A stretch of 20,807 nt of DNA from a virus, in the IMG/VR virus record IMGVR_UViG_3300035070_000079, positions 1 to 20,807 of that record. One strand, written 5' to 3'. This document shows positions 16,048-20,532 of the stretch, one piece after another. Both the position numbers and the translations under genes were made by a program. Numbering within the stretch: position 1 is the first letter of the stretch; the number at the start of each line of letters is the position of its first letter. The notes beneath the pieces were generated by a model. That model saw only the letters and a list, made by a program, of their open reading frames with translations. It had not been told where the DNA came from and made no database searches.

Positions 16048-18108
16048 ATGGCGTCTTTTACAGTAGAACAGAATATTGAAGGGGCTGGAGCATACTCTCA
16101 GGGTGTAGTACCTCAGAGAATGGCTGTCTCAGGGGCTACAGGGGTTCTTAGTTCCCTAGTCCAACTAGGTGACACGTATGCAAGGGCAGAGGCCCGTACA
16201 AAAGCTGCTAATGCCCCTACACAAACAGACCGAGACCGTAGTACCATCGCAGGTACTCTTCGGAATGCTCAAGCAGACCTAGCTAAAGGTATGTCGAAGG
16301 ACGAAGTTGGTCAGAAGTATGCTGTTACTTTTGCTACGTTAGATATGAACGAACAAGAGAGAGCACTTGCTGTTCAAATGGTAGGTGATGTCTTTGCTGT
16401 CCCTGTTCAACCAACCAGTACTCAAGACACTACTGTAGAGTTGTGGAACAGCCAGCCAGATGTAGTACGGGCTGGTTTGGTACAGGTAGAGATAAACAAT
16501 GCTACTGCTAATGGGGAGAAGATTACCCCAGAGGAAGCTCAATCAAGAGCTATCCAAACAAATCAAGCTGATCTTATTTCAGCCAATGCAGGTATCCTTC
16601 AAGGTAACCAGAGCTACATGAAAGGTTTTGCACAAAACATGCAGACCCTTGACTCATTCGGTAATGCTTTAGTATCAGCCTTAAACGTGGAGATCGAAGG
16701 GGGTAACTTTAGCCTCGAAGACTTGCAAAGAATGCGAGGGGCTATCTTAAGCCTTAAAGGACAGCCAGCCTTCCAGAAACCTACGGGTGAACAGGCTCTG
16801 GCTCTTTGGGCTAAGATGGAAACTAAGCTTCAGTCCTTTGATGCTATCTTTGAAGCCTTAGAAAACTACGATGCTAAGGATGCTACAGCTAAAGCTAAGT
16901 CTTTAATGGCACAGATTTCTCTTAACCTTGCTAAAGACGATCCCCTAGCAATCTTGGCTATGTCTAGCCCAGAGGTTATGATAGATTTAGCTGCTAAACT
17001 AAAACCTTCCTTCGCAGCAGAACTTTCTACTATGTCAGAGACACCGACTGTACGGTACAGTGACTTGAACTTTGACCCAGCTGTTCTAGAGGCCATGGGT
17101 TTAGGTGAAAGTGGAGAAATAGGTACAGGCACTGGGTCTGTTCCTCCTATCAATGAACCATTTCCAGCAAGTCTATCTGAAGCCTACAAGACTATAGAAG
17201 ATAAAGGTTTCACAGTTGACAACAAGGAATTTACTGGAGCCTTAACCTCTAACCGTGAACTAATCTCAGCCTTTTCTCAATCAACCTTAAAGACACCTGA
17301 GTCAATCGAAGCCTTTGCATCAGTTGTAACTTCTCAGGCTTACTTGTTGTCTAAAGTTGAGTCCCGTTCCAAGGAAAACCTAGATGGCTTATTTGCAGAG
17401 AATACTATCGGTATTTTAAACAGTATGTCTAAACAGGGTGGTGAACAAGGTCGTATTTCAGCCACTCTTCGAGCACAAATGGGTGCAGCCTTGGATAGAA
17501 GCAGGGCAGTACATGCTAAAGCAGCAGCAGGTATGGTAGATCGTCTTCCTTCTGTAGGCATTCTAAATGGCAAGTGGGCCTTGACGGGTTCAGACACTCC
17601 TGAGGTCCGACAACTACAGGCTGTAGCTGACTTGTACTACAATGGTGACTTTGAAGCCATGTGGAAACAGGGAACTACTGCACAGTCCCGTTTACAGAAC
17701 CGTCTAGCTGCAACGGGTGACATTACACCTAACTCGCCTGAGTACAGAAAGTTCTTAGCCTCTACTGAAGTACTGAAGTCAGCTTTCTGGGCAGGTCTAT
17801 CGGGTAGGTACAACACAGTAAAGGGTATCCCAGAACGGATTGCTCAGTTTAAGGAATATGGTAAAAAGATTGGTGTTGATGTAACTCAGGTTGAAGAAGA
17901 TCAAGCCTTTGCCACTGAAGCAGCTAACACAGCAGTTAATGCTATTACTCAAACTGAACTGGGAACAAAAGGTACACAGCAGAGTCCGTTTAGCCTAGGC
18001 CTAGAAGGGGCAACAGATGAGGAAACAGATGCAGCTTTTGATGCTCTCCCTGCTAATTCTTGGTTTATCAACCCTGCCGATGGCAAACTCCTTAAAAAGG
18101 AAGGTTGA
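16048..18108 (+). CDS. Internal virion protein, possibly T7 gp15-like
   Basis: A 686-residue protein of a size similar to T7 gp15 (747). AGGGAG at 16034-16039 lies eight bases before the ATG. It is predicted almost wholly helical from composition, with long amphipathic stretches (for example RNAQADLAKGMSKDEVGQKY near residue 72 and FDAIFEALENYDAKDATAKA near 265) and no signal peptide or catalytic motif that I can see. The C-terminal end carries FDALPANSWFINPADGK, a short pattern I associate with C-termini of phage ejection or tail-interior proteins. If it is the gp15 counterpart, its order relative to the giant protein is reversed compared with T7. A membrane-associated partner in the ejection channel is the inferred role. 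Confidence 0.65.
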   Translation: MASFTVEQNIEGAGAYSQGVVPQRMAVSGATGVLSSLVQLGDTYARAEARTKAANAPTQTDRDRSTIAGTLRNAQADLAKGMSKDEVGQKYAVTFATLDMNEQERALAVQMVGDVFAVPVQPTSTQDTTVELWNSQPDVVRAGLVQVEINNATANGEKITPEEAQSRAIQTNQADLISANAGILQGNQSYMKGFAQNMQTLDSFGNALVSALNVEIEGGNFSLEDLQRMRGAILSLKGQPAFQKPTGEQALALWAKMETKLQSFDAIFEALENYDAKDATAKAKSLMAQISLNLAKDDPLAILAMSSPEVMIDLAAKLKPSFAAELSTMSETPTVRYSDLNFDPAVLEAMGLGESGEIGTGTGSVPPINEPFPASLSEAYKTIEDKGFTVDNKEFTGALTSNRELISAFSQSTLKTPESIEAFASVVTSQAYLLSKVESRSKENLDGLFAENTIGILNSMSKQGGEQGRISATLRAQMGAALDRSRAVHAKAAAGMVDRLPSVGILNGKWALTGSDTPEVRQLQAVADLYYNGDFEAMWKQGTTAQSRLQNRLAATGDITPNSPEYRKFLASTEVLKSAFWAGLSGRYNTVKGIPERIAQFKEYGKKIGVDVTQVEEDQAFATEAANTAVNAITQTELGTKGTQQSPFSLGLEGATDEETDAAFDALPANSWFINPADGKLLKKEG
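18003..18010 (+). promoter_or_regulatory. Possible internal ribosome site for a longer lysozyme start
   Basis: AGAAGGGG lies six bases before an ATG at 18017 that is in frame with the lytic enzyme gene, inside the upstream gene in another frame. If used, it would add 32 residues resembling a Sec signal peptide. Overlapping coding sequence (Glu-Gly codons) can also explain the bases. Confidence 0.35.
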
Positions 18109-18112
18109 TTCA

Positions 18113-18874
18113 ATGGCTAGGGATTACTCAGATCGTGCAGTAGAAGCTGTGATGCCTGTGTTTGGTGACAGTAGTGAAAGGGTTAAAGAACTTCAGACTG
18201 CTTTGATTGCAAGAGGCTTCACTGAAGTAGGTAAGGCTGATGGCATCTACGGGGAAGCTACAAGAAAAGCTATAAGCAACTTCCAAAACTCTATTGACCT
18301 TGAGGTGACAGGACTAGCTGAACCTGAGACTTTTATTGAGCTGTACAAAATACCTGTAAAGACACAACCTACGTCTGCCGAGTCTAGTCTACAACCACAG
18401 TCAACCACTCAAACTACCCTACGTAAGGTCGAAGCAGGTGGGTACGATACTTTGTATGGTAACTTTGAGAAGGGTGGTACACCTTTTAAAGGTGTGTCTG
18501 TCTCTAACATGACTATAGGTGAACTTATTAAGTTTTCTCGTGCAACAGGTGCTTACGGCCAGTACGTTAAGCCACGTCTAGCTAAGAATACATACGCATA
18601 CAAGAAAGGTCTTACCTCCACTCCTATGGGTAAGTACCAGATCGTAGGGTCTACACTACGTGACCTGACTAACCGTATGAATCTACCTTCAGACACTGTA
18701 TTCAACAAAGAAACACAAGACAAGATGTTCCTATTCCTTGCTCGTGAGAACCTAGCTAGGGCTAACAACCCACAAGCTAAACGTAAGAACCTCCGTAGTA
18801 TCTGGGAAGGTTTTAAACACGTAAACAACAGCACCTTGGACAAGATCATCAAGGAGATTGACACAAATGGCTAA
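18113..18874 (+). CDS. Peptidoglycan-binding plus lysozyme-like muralytic enzyme
   Basis: A 253-residue protein from ATG 18113, with AGGAAGG at 18098-18104, eight bases upstream. Residues about 15-80 match the PG_binding_1 pattern: VKELQTALIARGF, DGIYGEATRKAI, FQ, and LAEPETFIELY. After a Ser/Thr/Gln-rich linker (about 82-103) a lysozyme-like domain follows, with a candidate catalytic Glu107 in KVEAGGYDTLYG, MTIGELIKFS (133-142) and TPMGKYQIVGSTL (170-182), comparable to the TxxGRYQ segment of glycosidases. It probably cleaves the glycan strand. It could be the endolysin or a virion-associated enzyme: the neighbours are ejection proteins on one side and membrane/lysis genes on the other. A second in-frame start at 18017 would add a signal-peptide-like extension. 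It overlaps the next gene by 8 bases. Confidence 0.82.
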   Translation: MARDYSDRAVEAVMPVFGDSSERVKELQTALIARGFTEVGKADGIYGEATRKAISNFQNSIDLEVTGLAEPETFIELYKIPVKTQPTSAESSLQPQSTTQTTLRKVEAGGYDTLYGNFEKGGTPFKGVSVSNMTIGELIKFSRATGAYGQYVKPRLAKNTYAYKKGLTSTPMGKYQIVGSTLRDLTNRMNLPSDTVFNKETQDKMFLFLARENLARANNPQAKRKNLRSIWEGFKHVNNSTLDKIIKEIDTNG

Positions 18875-19730
18875 AGATTATTCCAATGTTGCTGGTGTGG
18901 TAGGAGCAGTAATCAACACAGTTGACAAAGTTGCTACTGAGATCGGTCAAGAGGTCGCAGCAGCTACACCTATGTGGCAATCTGTAGTAGATCAAGCTTC
19001 TAGTGCTCTCGAATCTGGTGCAGATTATGTTGCAGATGCAGCTGAAGATGTATATGAAGCACTCCCAGAAATGGATGACGTAGTAGAGACGGCTTCAAGC
19101 ATTGGTTCCTTTGTAAAGGATGCTGTTCGTACTACAGCTGATGCCATTGTAGGACCAGAGTCAACAGTTAAAGCATTGATGTTTGCTGCACCTGTAGCTA
19201 ATGCCGTTCTACCTATCAATGCTGCTAAGTTTGCTGAGTTCCTTGCTAATGATGGTAAGATCGACATCACCTCAGAAGACTTGGGGGATGACTACGACTT
19301 CCTCAGAGAAAAGGCTATTGAAACTATCAATGAGGGTAAGAGTAGCTTTAGTTATGAGACTTGGGGTTTTGAAGACAAGAGTATCCTCATGTCAGACCTT
19401 GGTGAAACAGCTACAAAGTCTTTCACAGACCCTAACTACCGTATGGCTACTCTTATTGGACGTACAGGTGAAGGTAATGTCCGTATCGAAAATGGTCGTG
19501 TTATCGTAGAAGATGTGTATGACTTCAACACGGGACCAAGAGGTACTAAACTACAGCAAGCCCTAGTCTTGAAAGAGACAGGTGACATCGAAGGCTACGA
19601 GAGACTTGCAGAAGAAGCCTTAGGCGGTCAGACGTACTTCGGTAAGATGCGGATCTGGGGTGCTGCTCTGGGTGTTCCTCAAGGTGAAGGTACCCGTTTC
19701 AAACTAGACTTGGGGCCAGCACCAGAATGA
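18867..19730 (+). CDS. Unknown protein sharing the MA[RK]DYS start
   Basis: A 287-residue protein; ATG 18867 has AAGGAG ten bases upstream and overlaps the enzyme gene by 8 bases. A TTG at 18858 is rejected as too close to that site. It begins MAKDYS, nearly the same as MARDYS of the preceding enzyme. Residues 10-130 are Ala/Val/Asp-rich and helical (for example ADYVADAAEDVYEALPEMDD), with a mildly hydrophobic stretch VKALMFAAPVANAVLPINAA (101-120). The C-terminal 90 residues look like a compact domain, with IVEDVYDFNTG (213-223) and RIWGAALGVPQGEG (262-275) as its most distinctive parts. I do not recognise a function. The shared start and the coupling suggest it works with the lytic enzyme or travels in the same virion compartment. 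Confidence 0.75.
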   Translation: MAKDYSNVAGVVGAVINTVDKVATEIGQEVAAATPMWQSVVDQASSALESGADYVADAAEDVYEALPEMDDVVETASSIGSFVKDAVRTTADAIVGPESTVKALMFAAPVANAVLPINAAKFAEFLANDGKIDITSEDLGDDYDFLREKAIETINEGKSSFSYETWGFEDKSILMSDLGETATKSFTDPNYRMATLIGRTGEGNVRIENGRVIVEDVYDFNTGPRGTKLQQALVLKETGDIEGYERLAEEALGGQTYFGKMRIWGAALGVPQGEGTRFKLDLGPAPE

Positions 19731-20062
19731 GACTTGTAATCCTTCTACTTCTTTCTCTTTCCCTAGGTGGGTGTCTTAACCCCATGTCCTTGCTCACTGG
19801 TGGTGGACCTAACGTAGCTGCTAACGTACAGGCAGGTGCTGAGAACAACCAGACAGGTGCTCAGGTAGGTGACATCATCAAGGCTGATACAGTCAACACA
19901 GGCATCACTCCTAGTGGCTCTATCGAAGCACTGAACGTAACAAACGAGGACATACCCATGTGGGTGGTCCTACTTCTAATCTTAGGCTGGGTACTTCCAT
20001 CTCCTCAAGAGATATGGAGAGGCTTCTTGAAGACTATAACACTAGGTAGGTACCGTCCATGA
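19727..20062 (+). CDS. Lipoprotein with C-terminal membrane segment, u-spanin candidate
   Basis: A 111-residue protein whose ATG overlaps the preceding stop (ATGA). The N-terminus MRLVILLLLSLSLGGC is a lipoprotein signal with lipobox LGGC and lipidated Cys16. The mature part (16-76) is Gly/Asn/Ala-rich and carries no obvious catalytic residue. Residues about 77-92 (PMWVVLLLILGWVLPS) form a second hydrophobic segment, followed by a basic tail. An outer-membrane lipid anchor plus an inner-membrane C-terminal segment in one short protein is the plan of unimolecular spanins such as T1 gp11, which fuse the two membranes at the end of lysis. The next two genes are membrane proteins as well. An o-spanin working with the gene at 20529 is the alternative. 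Confidence 0.75.
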   Translation: MRLVILLLLSLSLGGCLNPMSLLTGGGPNVAANVQAGAENNQTGAQVGDIIKADTVNTGITPSGSIEALNVTNEDIPMWVVLLLILGWVLPSPQEIWRGFLKTITLGRYRP

Positions 20063-20532
20063 GTTTAGGTCTAAGAGGTACTTATGACAAAGTTATGTCA
20101 GCCAATGGTCCAGCCCAGATGCTTTCCTATGGCTTCTGGTCTGTGTTGGTGGCTGGTATGTTCTATCAAGTAGACCCTATGTGCTTCCCTGACAGCTTGA
20201 TTATAACTTGGGGCCTCTTAGGTCTGGCCGTTATCCCTGCTGCTGTGTGGGGTGGCCCTAGTCTACTGAAGTACATCTTGTTGCTAGATATGTTCGTGAC
20301 AGCTGTAGTTCTAGCTAAGTTTGTCATGCACGAACCTCATGCTGTGCAACAAGCAGTGTACCACATACAGACAGCAACAGGTTGGTCATCTTCTACCCGT
20401 GGTCATGAGATGAATACCCATAGCATCTCACAATGGTTCCACGGAGCAGCCTTAGTGTGGATGTCTTTTCACTCACTATACTTAGCCAACTTAATACAAC
20501 GTCAGCAGCTAGAAAAGAAGAGGTTCAAATGA
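20059..20532 (+). CDS. Polytopic membrane protein, holin candidate
   Basis: A 157-residue protein coupled by ATGA to the lipoprotein gene before it. Hydrophobic segments are visible at about residues 21-37, 46-64, 69-90 and 122-146, giving three to four membrane spans, with a charged C-terminus (LEKKRFK). The stretch between the third and fourth spans (about 91-121) is His-rich and polar. Size, span number and location among lytic-enzyme, spanin-like and coiled-coil membrane genes fit a holin, but no family signature is recognised and four spans is not the most common holin design. A membrane protein of unknown function is the conservative reading. Confidence 0.7.
   Translation: MSLGLRGTYDKVMSANGPAQMLSYGFWSVLVAGMFYQVDPMCFPDSLIITWGLLGLAVIPAAVWGGPSLLKYILLLDMFVTAVVLAKFVMHEPHAVQQAVYHIQTATGWSSSTRGHEMNTHSISQWFHGAALVWMSFHSLYLANLIQRQQLEKKRFK

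Follow-up and report, generated by a model that had tools for sequence, protein, structure and literature searches.

A putative Sec-type signal overprinted on a virion-cluster gene precedes unrelated lysis enzymes in cobavirus-like phages

Results

Organization of the lysis locus

The stretch of DNA analyzed in this work, hereafter the window, comprises 20,807 nucleotides, positions 1 to 20,807 of the IMG/VR virus record IMGVR_UViG_3300035070_000079. It matches members of the Cobavirinae (Zobellviridae), i.e. SIO1, ICBM1, P12053L and CRP-4, and judging from these matches its source is a cobavirus-like roseophage of the SIO1/ICBM1 group. All the genes described below are located on the plus strand. 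The first of them, here referred to as U (16048..18108), encodes a protein of 686 aa assigned to PHROG 37630 (phrog_37630, E 1e-180) and belongs to the internal-virion-protein cluster; in ICBM1, internal virion protein D precedes it. The U gene of the original SIO1 record is interrupted by an in-frame stop (L011:3628) well upstream of the conserved C-terminus, and another SIO1 isolate (L018) is open at this place; the stop represents either a sequencing error or a real truncation.

U is followed by the lysin gene, whose short form (18113..18874, 253 aa) carries PG_binding_1 and phage lysozyme-like domains, with matches to PF01471 (E 3e-14), to the endolysin family phrog_90 (E 4e-19) and also to phrog_14527. 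For the catalytic domain, searches against solved structures and folds yielded nothing significant; the top fold match, lambda lysozyme (1am7), was non-significant (E 0.42) and is taken as a lead only. The next gene (18870..19730) encodes a protein of 286 aa with the N-terminus MAKDYSNVAG, and has no match in Pfam, PHROG or NCBIfam. Downstream of it there is a putative unimolecular spanin (19727..20062) with a lipobox (LGGC), a C-terminal TM, two hydrophobic stretches in all, and a match to NF037952 (spanin2, E 9e-13) that is under the cut-off of this family. The gene after it (20059..20532) is a holin candidate; its hydropathy, with two or more TM stretches, indicates a membrane protein, and family searches gave no match for it. 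In L086, L094, L104, L117, L138, L141 and L144, a highly conserved small protein that starts with MFGLPLELITMLFSTILGGVMS is present after the enzyme, with MFGLPLELITMLFSTVLGGVMS in L141 and L144.

A signal-like extension begins at a long start inside U

The lysin frame is free of stops between the stop at 18002 and position 18874, and it contains an ATG upstream of the short start, at 18017. This ATG is preceded by the Shine-Dalgarno-like sequence AGAAGGGG (18003..18010) and the six-nucleotide spacer CAACAG; the duplex of AGAAGGGG with the anti-Shine-Dalgarno has an energy of -7.1 kcal/mol, as compared with a mean of -1.5 for random sequences. Translation from the long start would add the 32 residues MRKQMQLLMLSLLILGLSTLPMANSLKRKVDS (18017..18112) and give a lysin of 285 aa. 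Nearly the whole extension is contained in the last 31 codons of U, in another frame. The initial annotation had described this open frame, the ATG, the six-base spacer, the 32 added residues and the 285-aa form, and all its coordinates proved to be exact.

A basic start followed by a hydrophobic core is the layout of Sec signals. In the window, the extension has the n-region MRKQMQ, the core LLMLSLLILGLSTLP (18035..18079), with a mean Kyte-Doolittle hydropathy of 2.17 across 15 residues, and a possible c-region, MANS (18080..18091, from the sequence), where type I cleavage could occur after ANS, before the following L. An AlphaFold model shows a helix at residues 2-33, which is confident (pLDDT 91 and 84) for the first 20 residues only. 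When all 179 ATGs that open frames of at least 60 aa on either strand of the whole window were searched for a basic and strongly hydrophobic N-terminus, just two were found, 18017 and 19727, the latter corresponding to the spanin lipoprotein.

Processing of the extension may vary. A loose lipobox was observed in six of 29 representatives (e.g. MAGC in CRP-4), and inspection of the ICBM1/SIO1 extension sequence revealed no clear signal peptidase cleavage site. In our view, the long form is probably a lysin that is targeted to the membrane or exported, with processing that differs among lineages.

The extension is maintained beyond what U forces

Relatives were gathered through the lysozyme-domain alignment and through searches with internal virion protein D, which took the place of U given that the U-only alignment, being so divergent, was unsuitable for searching the collection; together they yielded 145 viral-contig loci, many of them overlapping, in addition to isolate genomes. 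An open, Leu-rich extension was found wherever the lysis enzyme shares the window's frame relative to U. In this arrangement a silent change in U alters the extension, because the third position of each U codon coincides with the second position of a codon in the lysin frame. The expectation under the constraint of U was therefore calculated by keeping the amino acids of U fixed and redrawing its synonymous codons by each gene's own usage. An extension was scored as strongly hydrophobic when its mean hydropathy reached 1.8 over 15 residues, a cut-off chosen after an earlier look at 1.6 with fewer lineages and applied identically to the controls.

For the window alone, about 2% of the resampled sequences equalled the openness and hydrophobicity of the extension. 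Among the 55 distinct in-frame junctions, the extension was open in all 55 (18.7 expected) and strongly hydrophobic in 52 (6.1 expected), and an ATG with a net-positive n-region and a core, that is, a signal-like N-terminus on a muralytic enzyme, was present in 48 (3.1 expected). In contrast, in ten relatives with the same U family and the enzyme in another frame (phase 0 in L056; phase 1 in L050, L122, L131, L148, L152, L156, L157, L159 and L168), the corresponding stretch was open in three (1.4 expected), hydrophobic in one (0.75 expected) and had the complete layout in one. These relatives lack the extension, and therefore their lysin must function without it. Among control windows taken from inside the same genes, 57 of 275 were open and nine hydrophobic, as compared with 48.5 and 5.1 expected. 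Grouping the junctions into 27 clusters (less than 65% DNA identity of the overlap) gave 27 open and 25 hydrophobic against 9.7 and 3.2 expected, although the clusters are not fully independent and their tail probabilities are thus descriptive.

From the excess over resampling, and its absence in the ten out-of-frame relatives, it follows that U does not force the extension; the second frame is under selection. The initial annotation had left room for the hydrophobic run being a chance product of the overlapping frame, a doubt that the codon-resampling null and the out-of-frame group reject. Its proposed check by homologue alignment gave an extension conserved beyond the demands of the overlapping gene, and the case that it had regarded as contrary, a conserved enzyme behind a closed or non-hydrophobic extension, appeared in none of the same-frame relatives. 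The layout that it had described, with a basic start and a hydrophobic core, recurs in the 48 lineages mentioned above.

A specific version of that doubt holds that the hydrophobicity arises passively when the conserved C-terminal motif of U, LPxGxxFIDPxDG, is read one base over, and that only the short form is made. The residues of U do contribute, since alone they leave about one third of the resamplings open and make about one tenth strongly hydrophobic; nevertheless, these fractions fall far below the observed counts, the out-of-frame controls are at chance, and extensions persist in lineages with a different U C-terminus (CRP-5, L039, L119 and L154). As a full explanation this was refuted by the resampling and the controls, and we regard it as very improbable.

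Very little probability is likewise given to the proposal that the codons of the overlap serve RNA needs, i.e. a U-rich and weakly structured region near the next start, with hydrophobicity following from third-position T. Such a T does produce a hydrophobic codon in the shifted frame, and the overlaps are enriched in it (mean z +1.4). However, the out-of-frame relatives also start a gene here and show no excess of T (z -0.3); a harsher null based on the overlaps' own pooled codon usage predicts 37.8 open and 22.4 hydrophobic extensions, still short of the 55 and 52 observed; and T content alone cannot explain the ATG and the basic residues.

Since the extension overlaps U and reads in frame into the lysin, it could also be reached by programmed frameshifting from U, to yield a U-lysin fusion. 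Against this, in many lineages an in-frame stop lies 0-6 codons before the ATG (four in the window, one in L022, one in CRP-5, none in L041 and three in L128), and the basic residues come directly after the in-frame stop and the ATG, which is the layout of an initiation site. We consider frameshifting extremely improbable.

For close pairs, synonymous divergence was only mildly lower in the overlap (0.15 versus 0.21, p 0.03), and a similar drop occurs in the out-of-frame controls (0.21 versus 0.32), so this test is not specific. Conservation of phase was not counted as evidence, because the majority of the stop-to-start lengths (1, 4, 7 and 13) resemble moved stop codons and not indels, and therefore common descent explains it. 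Counting against the general picture, the out-of-frame control L050 also carries a signal-like stretch: its enzyme is in phase 1, yet the phase-2 frame (L050:3640-3734) still encodes a signal-like peptide, which stops shortly downstream of U and is probably left over from a recent change of frame.

A second start is conserved at the stop codon of U

In the window, the short start at 18113 has its own Shine-Dalgarno, AAGGAAGG (18097..18104), located inside U and with a duplex energy of -8.5 kcal/mol; the lysin gene thus has two in-frame starts, each with a ribosome-binding site. An in-frame ATG is present from -11 to +16 nt of the U stop in the 55 in-frame relatives, at +1 in 33 of them, and the extension-free lineages L056 and L050 begin their enzyme at the aligned start. 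The mean Shine-Dalgarno energy is -6.4 for the long starts (best of several starts) and -5.2 for the short ones, with the random value at -1.5; the long-start Shine-Dalgarno is weak in L113, L115, L139, L162 and L166.

The N-terminal motif of the short form, MARDYSDRAV (18113..18142), matches the N-terminus of the next gene product, and both co-vary: for about 10 residues in 19 phages, the score of the matched pairs was reached in 0 of 20000 permutations. Examples of lysin and next-protein motifs are ARDYSDRA and AKDYSNVA in the window, DFSNQATEYKP and DFSSQAKEFKP in L014, and NNFWEKDKP and ANFWDKDKP in L039; many of these pairs differ at silent sites. Since the ATG is kept in every in-frame relative and the short N-terminus co-varies with that of the next protein, both starts look real on the sequence evidence.

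The shared motif (18113-18142 and 18870-18899) is possibly a docking or packaging tag, and as a hint of virion carriage it is suggestive only. It is repeated inside the CRP-5 enzyme (L086:5979-6100, ANFWDNDEV ... ANFWDKDEV) and inside the L056 enzyme (L056:3875-3960, SEWNKADV ... SDWNKAAL; L008 is the same contig), and therefore it need not mark, or act at, the N-terminus only. In P12053L the gene after the lysin is lipoprotein/spanin-like, and not the tagged neighbour.

It could be argued that only the long exported form is made, that the ATG at the stop of U is idle and that the short-start annotations are wrong. In ICBM1/SIO1 the short start lacks a Shine-Dalgarno (-0.1) and the long start has one (-7.0); the annotation of SIO1 gp24 begins at the long start (L011:3818), and that of ICBM1 at the short ATG. 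In addition, a working export would make an unexported form needless. The long form as sole product is hard to reconcile, however, with an ATG kept in front of unrelated enzymes, with the mean strength of the short-start Shine-Dalgarno relative to random, with the use of the aligned start by the extension-free lineages, and with the co-variation of the short N-terminus, and we regard it as unlikely. The idea of the initial annotation that one gene may give two forms is in this way supported by the conservation of both starts.

Unrelated enzymes are found behind the same leader

The enzyme at this locus is not always of the SIO1 lysozyme type. An SLT transglycosylase is found in CRP-5 and L105, Amidase_2 in ICBM2, CHAP in L124, L128 and L151 (under the Pfam cut-off in L124 and L151), GH24 in L134, GH19 in L162, GH108 in L154, a pesticin-like domain in L155 and an M15 peptidase in L144; some enzymes, e.g. 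those of L115 and L138, gave no Pfam family match. In P12053L (L015, 4001-4891) the PG-binding N-terminus is kept and the catalytic part has diverged or been replaced. That a leader is common to unrelated enzymes argues that it has a function of its own.

Discussion

We consider it likely that this locus is a two-start lysis gene, in which an overprinted Sec-type signal or signal-anchor form is made along with a signal-free form, and in which the enzymes are exchangeable behind the signal. The long start inside U (18017 in the window) would give a lysin whose N-terminus is a signal or signal-anchor of the Sec type. This N-terminus is encoded by the 3' end of U in a different reading frame, and is maintained through the choice among synonymous codons in U. 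The second start at the U stop (18113 in the window) would give a signal-free lysin. The host Sec system would insert the long form into the inner membrane, or move it across, with no wait for the holin. We take the short form to be cytoplasmic, either retained until the holin opens the membrane or packaged in the virion. Muralytic enzymes could be swapped behind the same signal because the signal sits in U and the enzyme begins at the U stop. Translation of both forms, their export and their roles are what we infer from the sequences. More tentatively, the locus may act as a fixed export-signal socket for at least eight unrelated muralytic types, each gene producing a membrane-targeted lysin and an untargeted one that its motif would route elsewhere, e.g. 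to the virion.

If this is correct, lysis in a worldwide marine phage group would have to be modelled as Sec-assisted instead of depending on holin release alone, and a systematic error in the start sites annotated for cobavirus endolysins would be corrected. The locus would also be a clear natural example of overprinting that preserves an export signal through exchanges of the enzyme behind it. The initial suggestion of a virion-carried and a lysis form of one enzyme would become directly testable in cultured phages (ICBM1/2, CRP-4/5 and P12053L).

It has been reported that lysozyme, amidase and peptidase types of endolysin occur in cobaviruses, and that these endolysins are free of membrane-anchoring domains, from which a canonical holin lysis was inferred (ISME J 2019, PMC6775973). 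The same genes, read from the long start, each have a hydrophobic N-terminus, and the published statement appears to rest on the short starts. In the open-access literature searched, we found no report of a signal carried in another gene and common to swapped enzymes.

Like the SAR endolysins (P1 Lyz, phage 21 R and N4 gp61), the long forms have an N-terminal hydrophobic segment with a basic flank and a predicted membrane placement. In the SAR segments described so far, hydrophobicity is weak and Gly and Ala are abundant (for N4, PMC12642591), whereas the 15-residue cobavirus cores are rich in Leu, Ile and Val, with a mean of 5% Gly plus Ala, and are unlike the SAR type. Two starts in one frame, each with a ribosome-binding site, are known from lysA of mycobacteriophage Ms6, which gives a long and a short enzyme (PMC3111421); the cobavirus genes are predicted from sequence to share this arrangement. 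In Ms6, however, the second start lies within the enzyme proper and shortens it, whereas in cobaviruses the first start would add an export signal. A 2022 survey of two-product endolysins includes Gram-positive and mycobacterial hosts only (PMC9430671). The endolysin Lys44 of the Oenococcus phage fOg44 has an N-terminal Sec-type signal and is exported independently of the holin (PMC6116005). The cobavirus lysins resemble Lys44 in their predicted N-terminal Sec-type signal. They differ from it in the location of this signal, within the overlapping 3' part of a gene of the virion cluster, in its being common to unrelated enzymes, and in the conserved, signal-free second start that comes after it.
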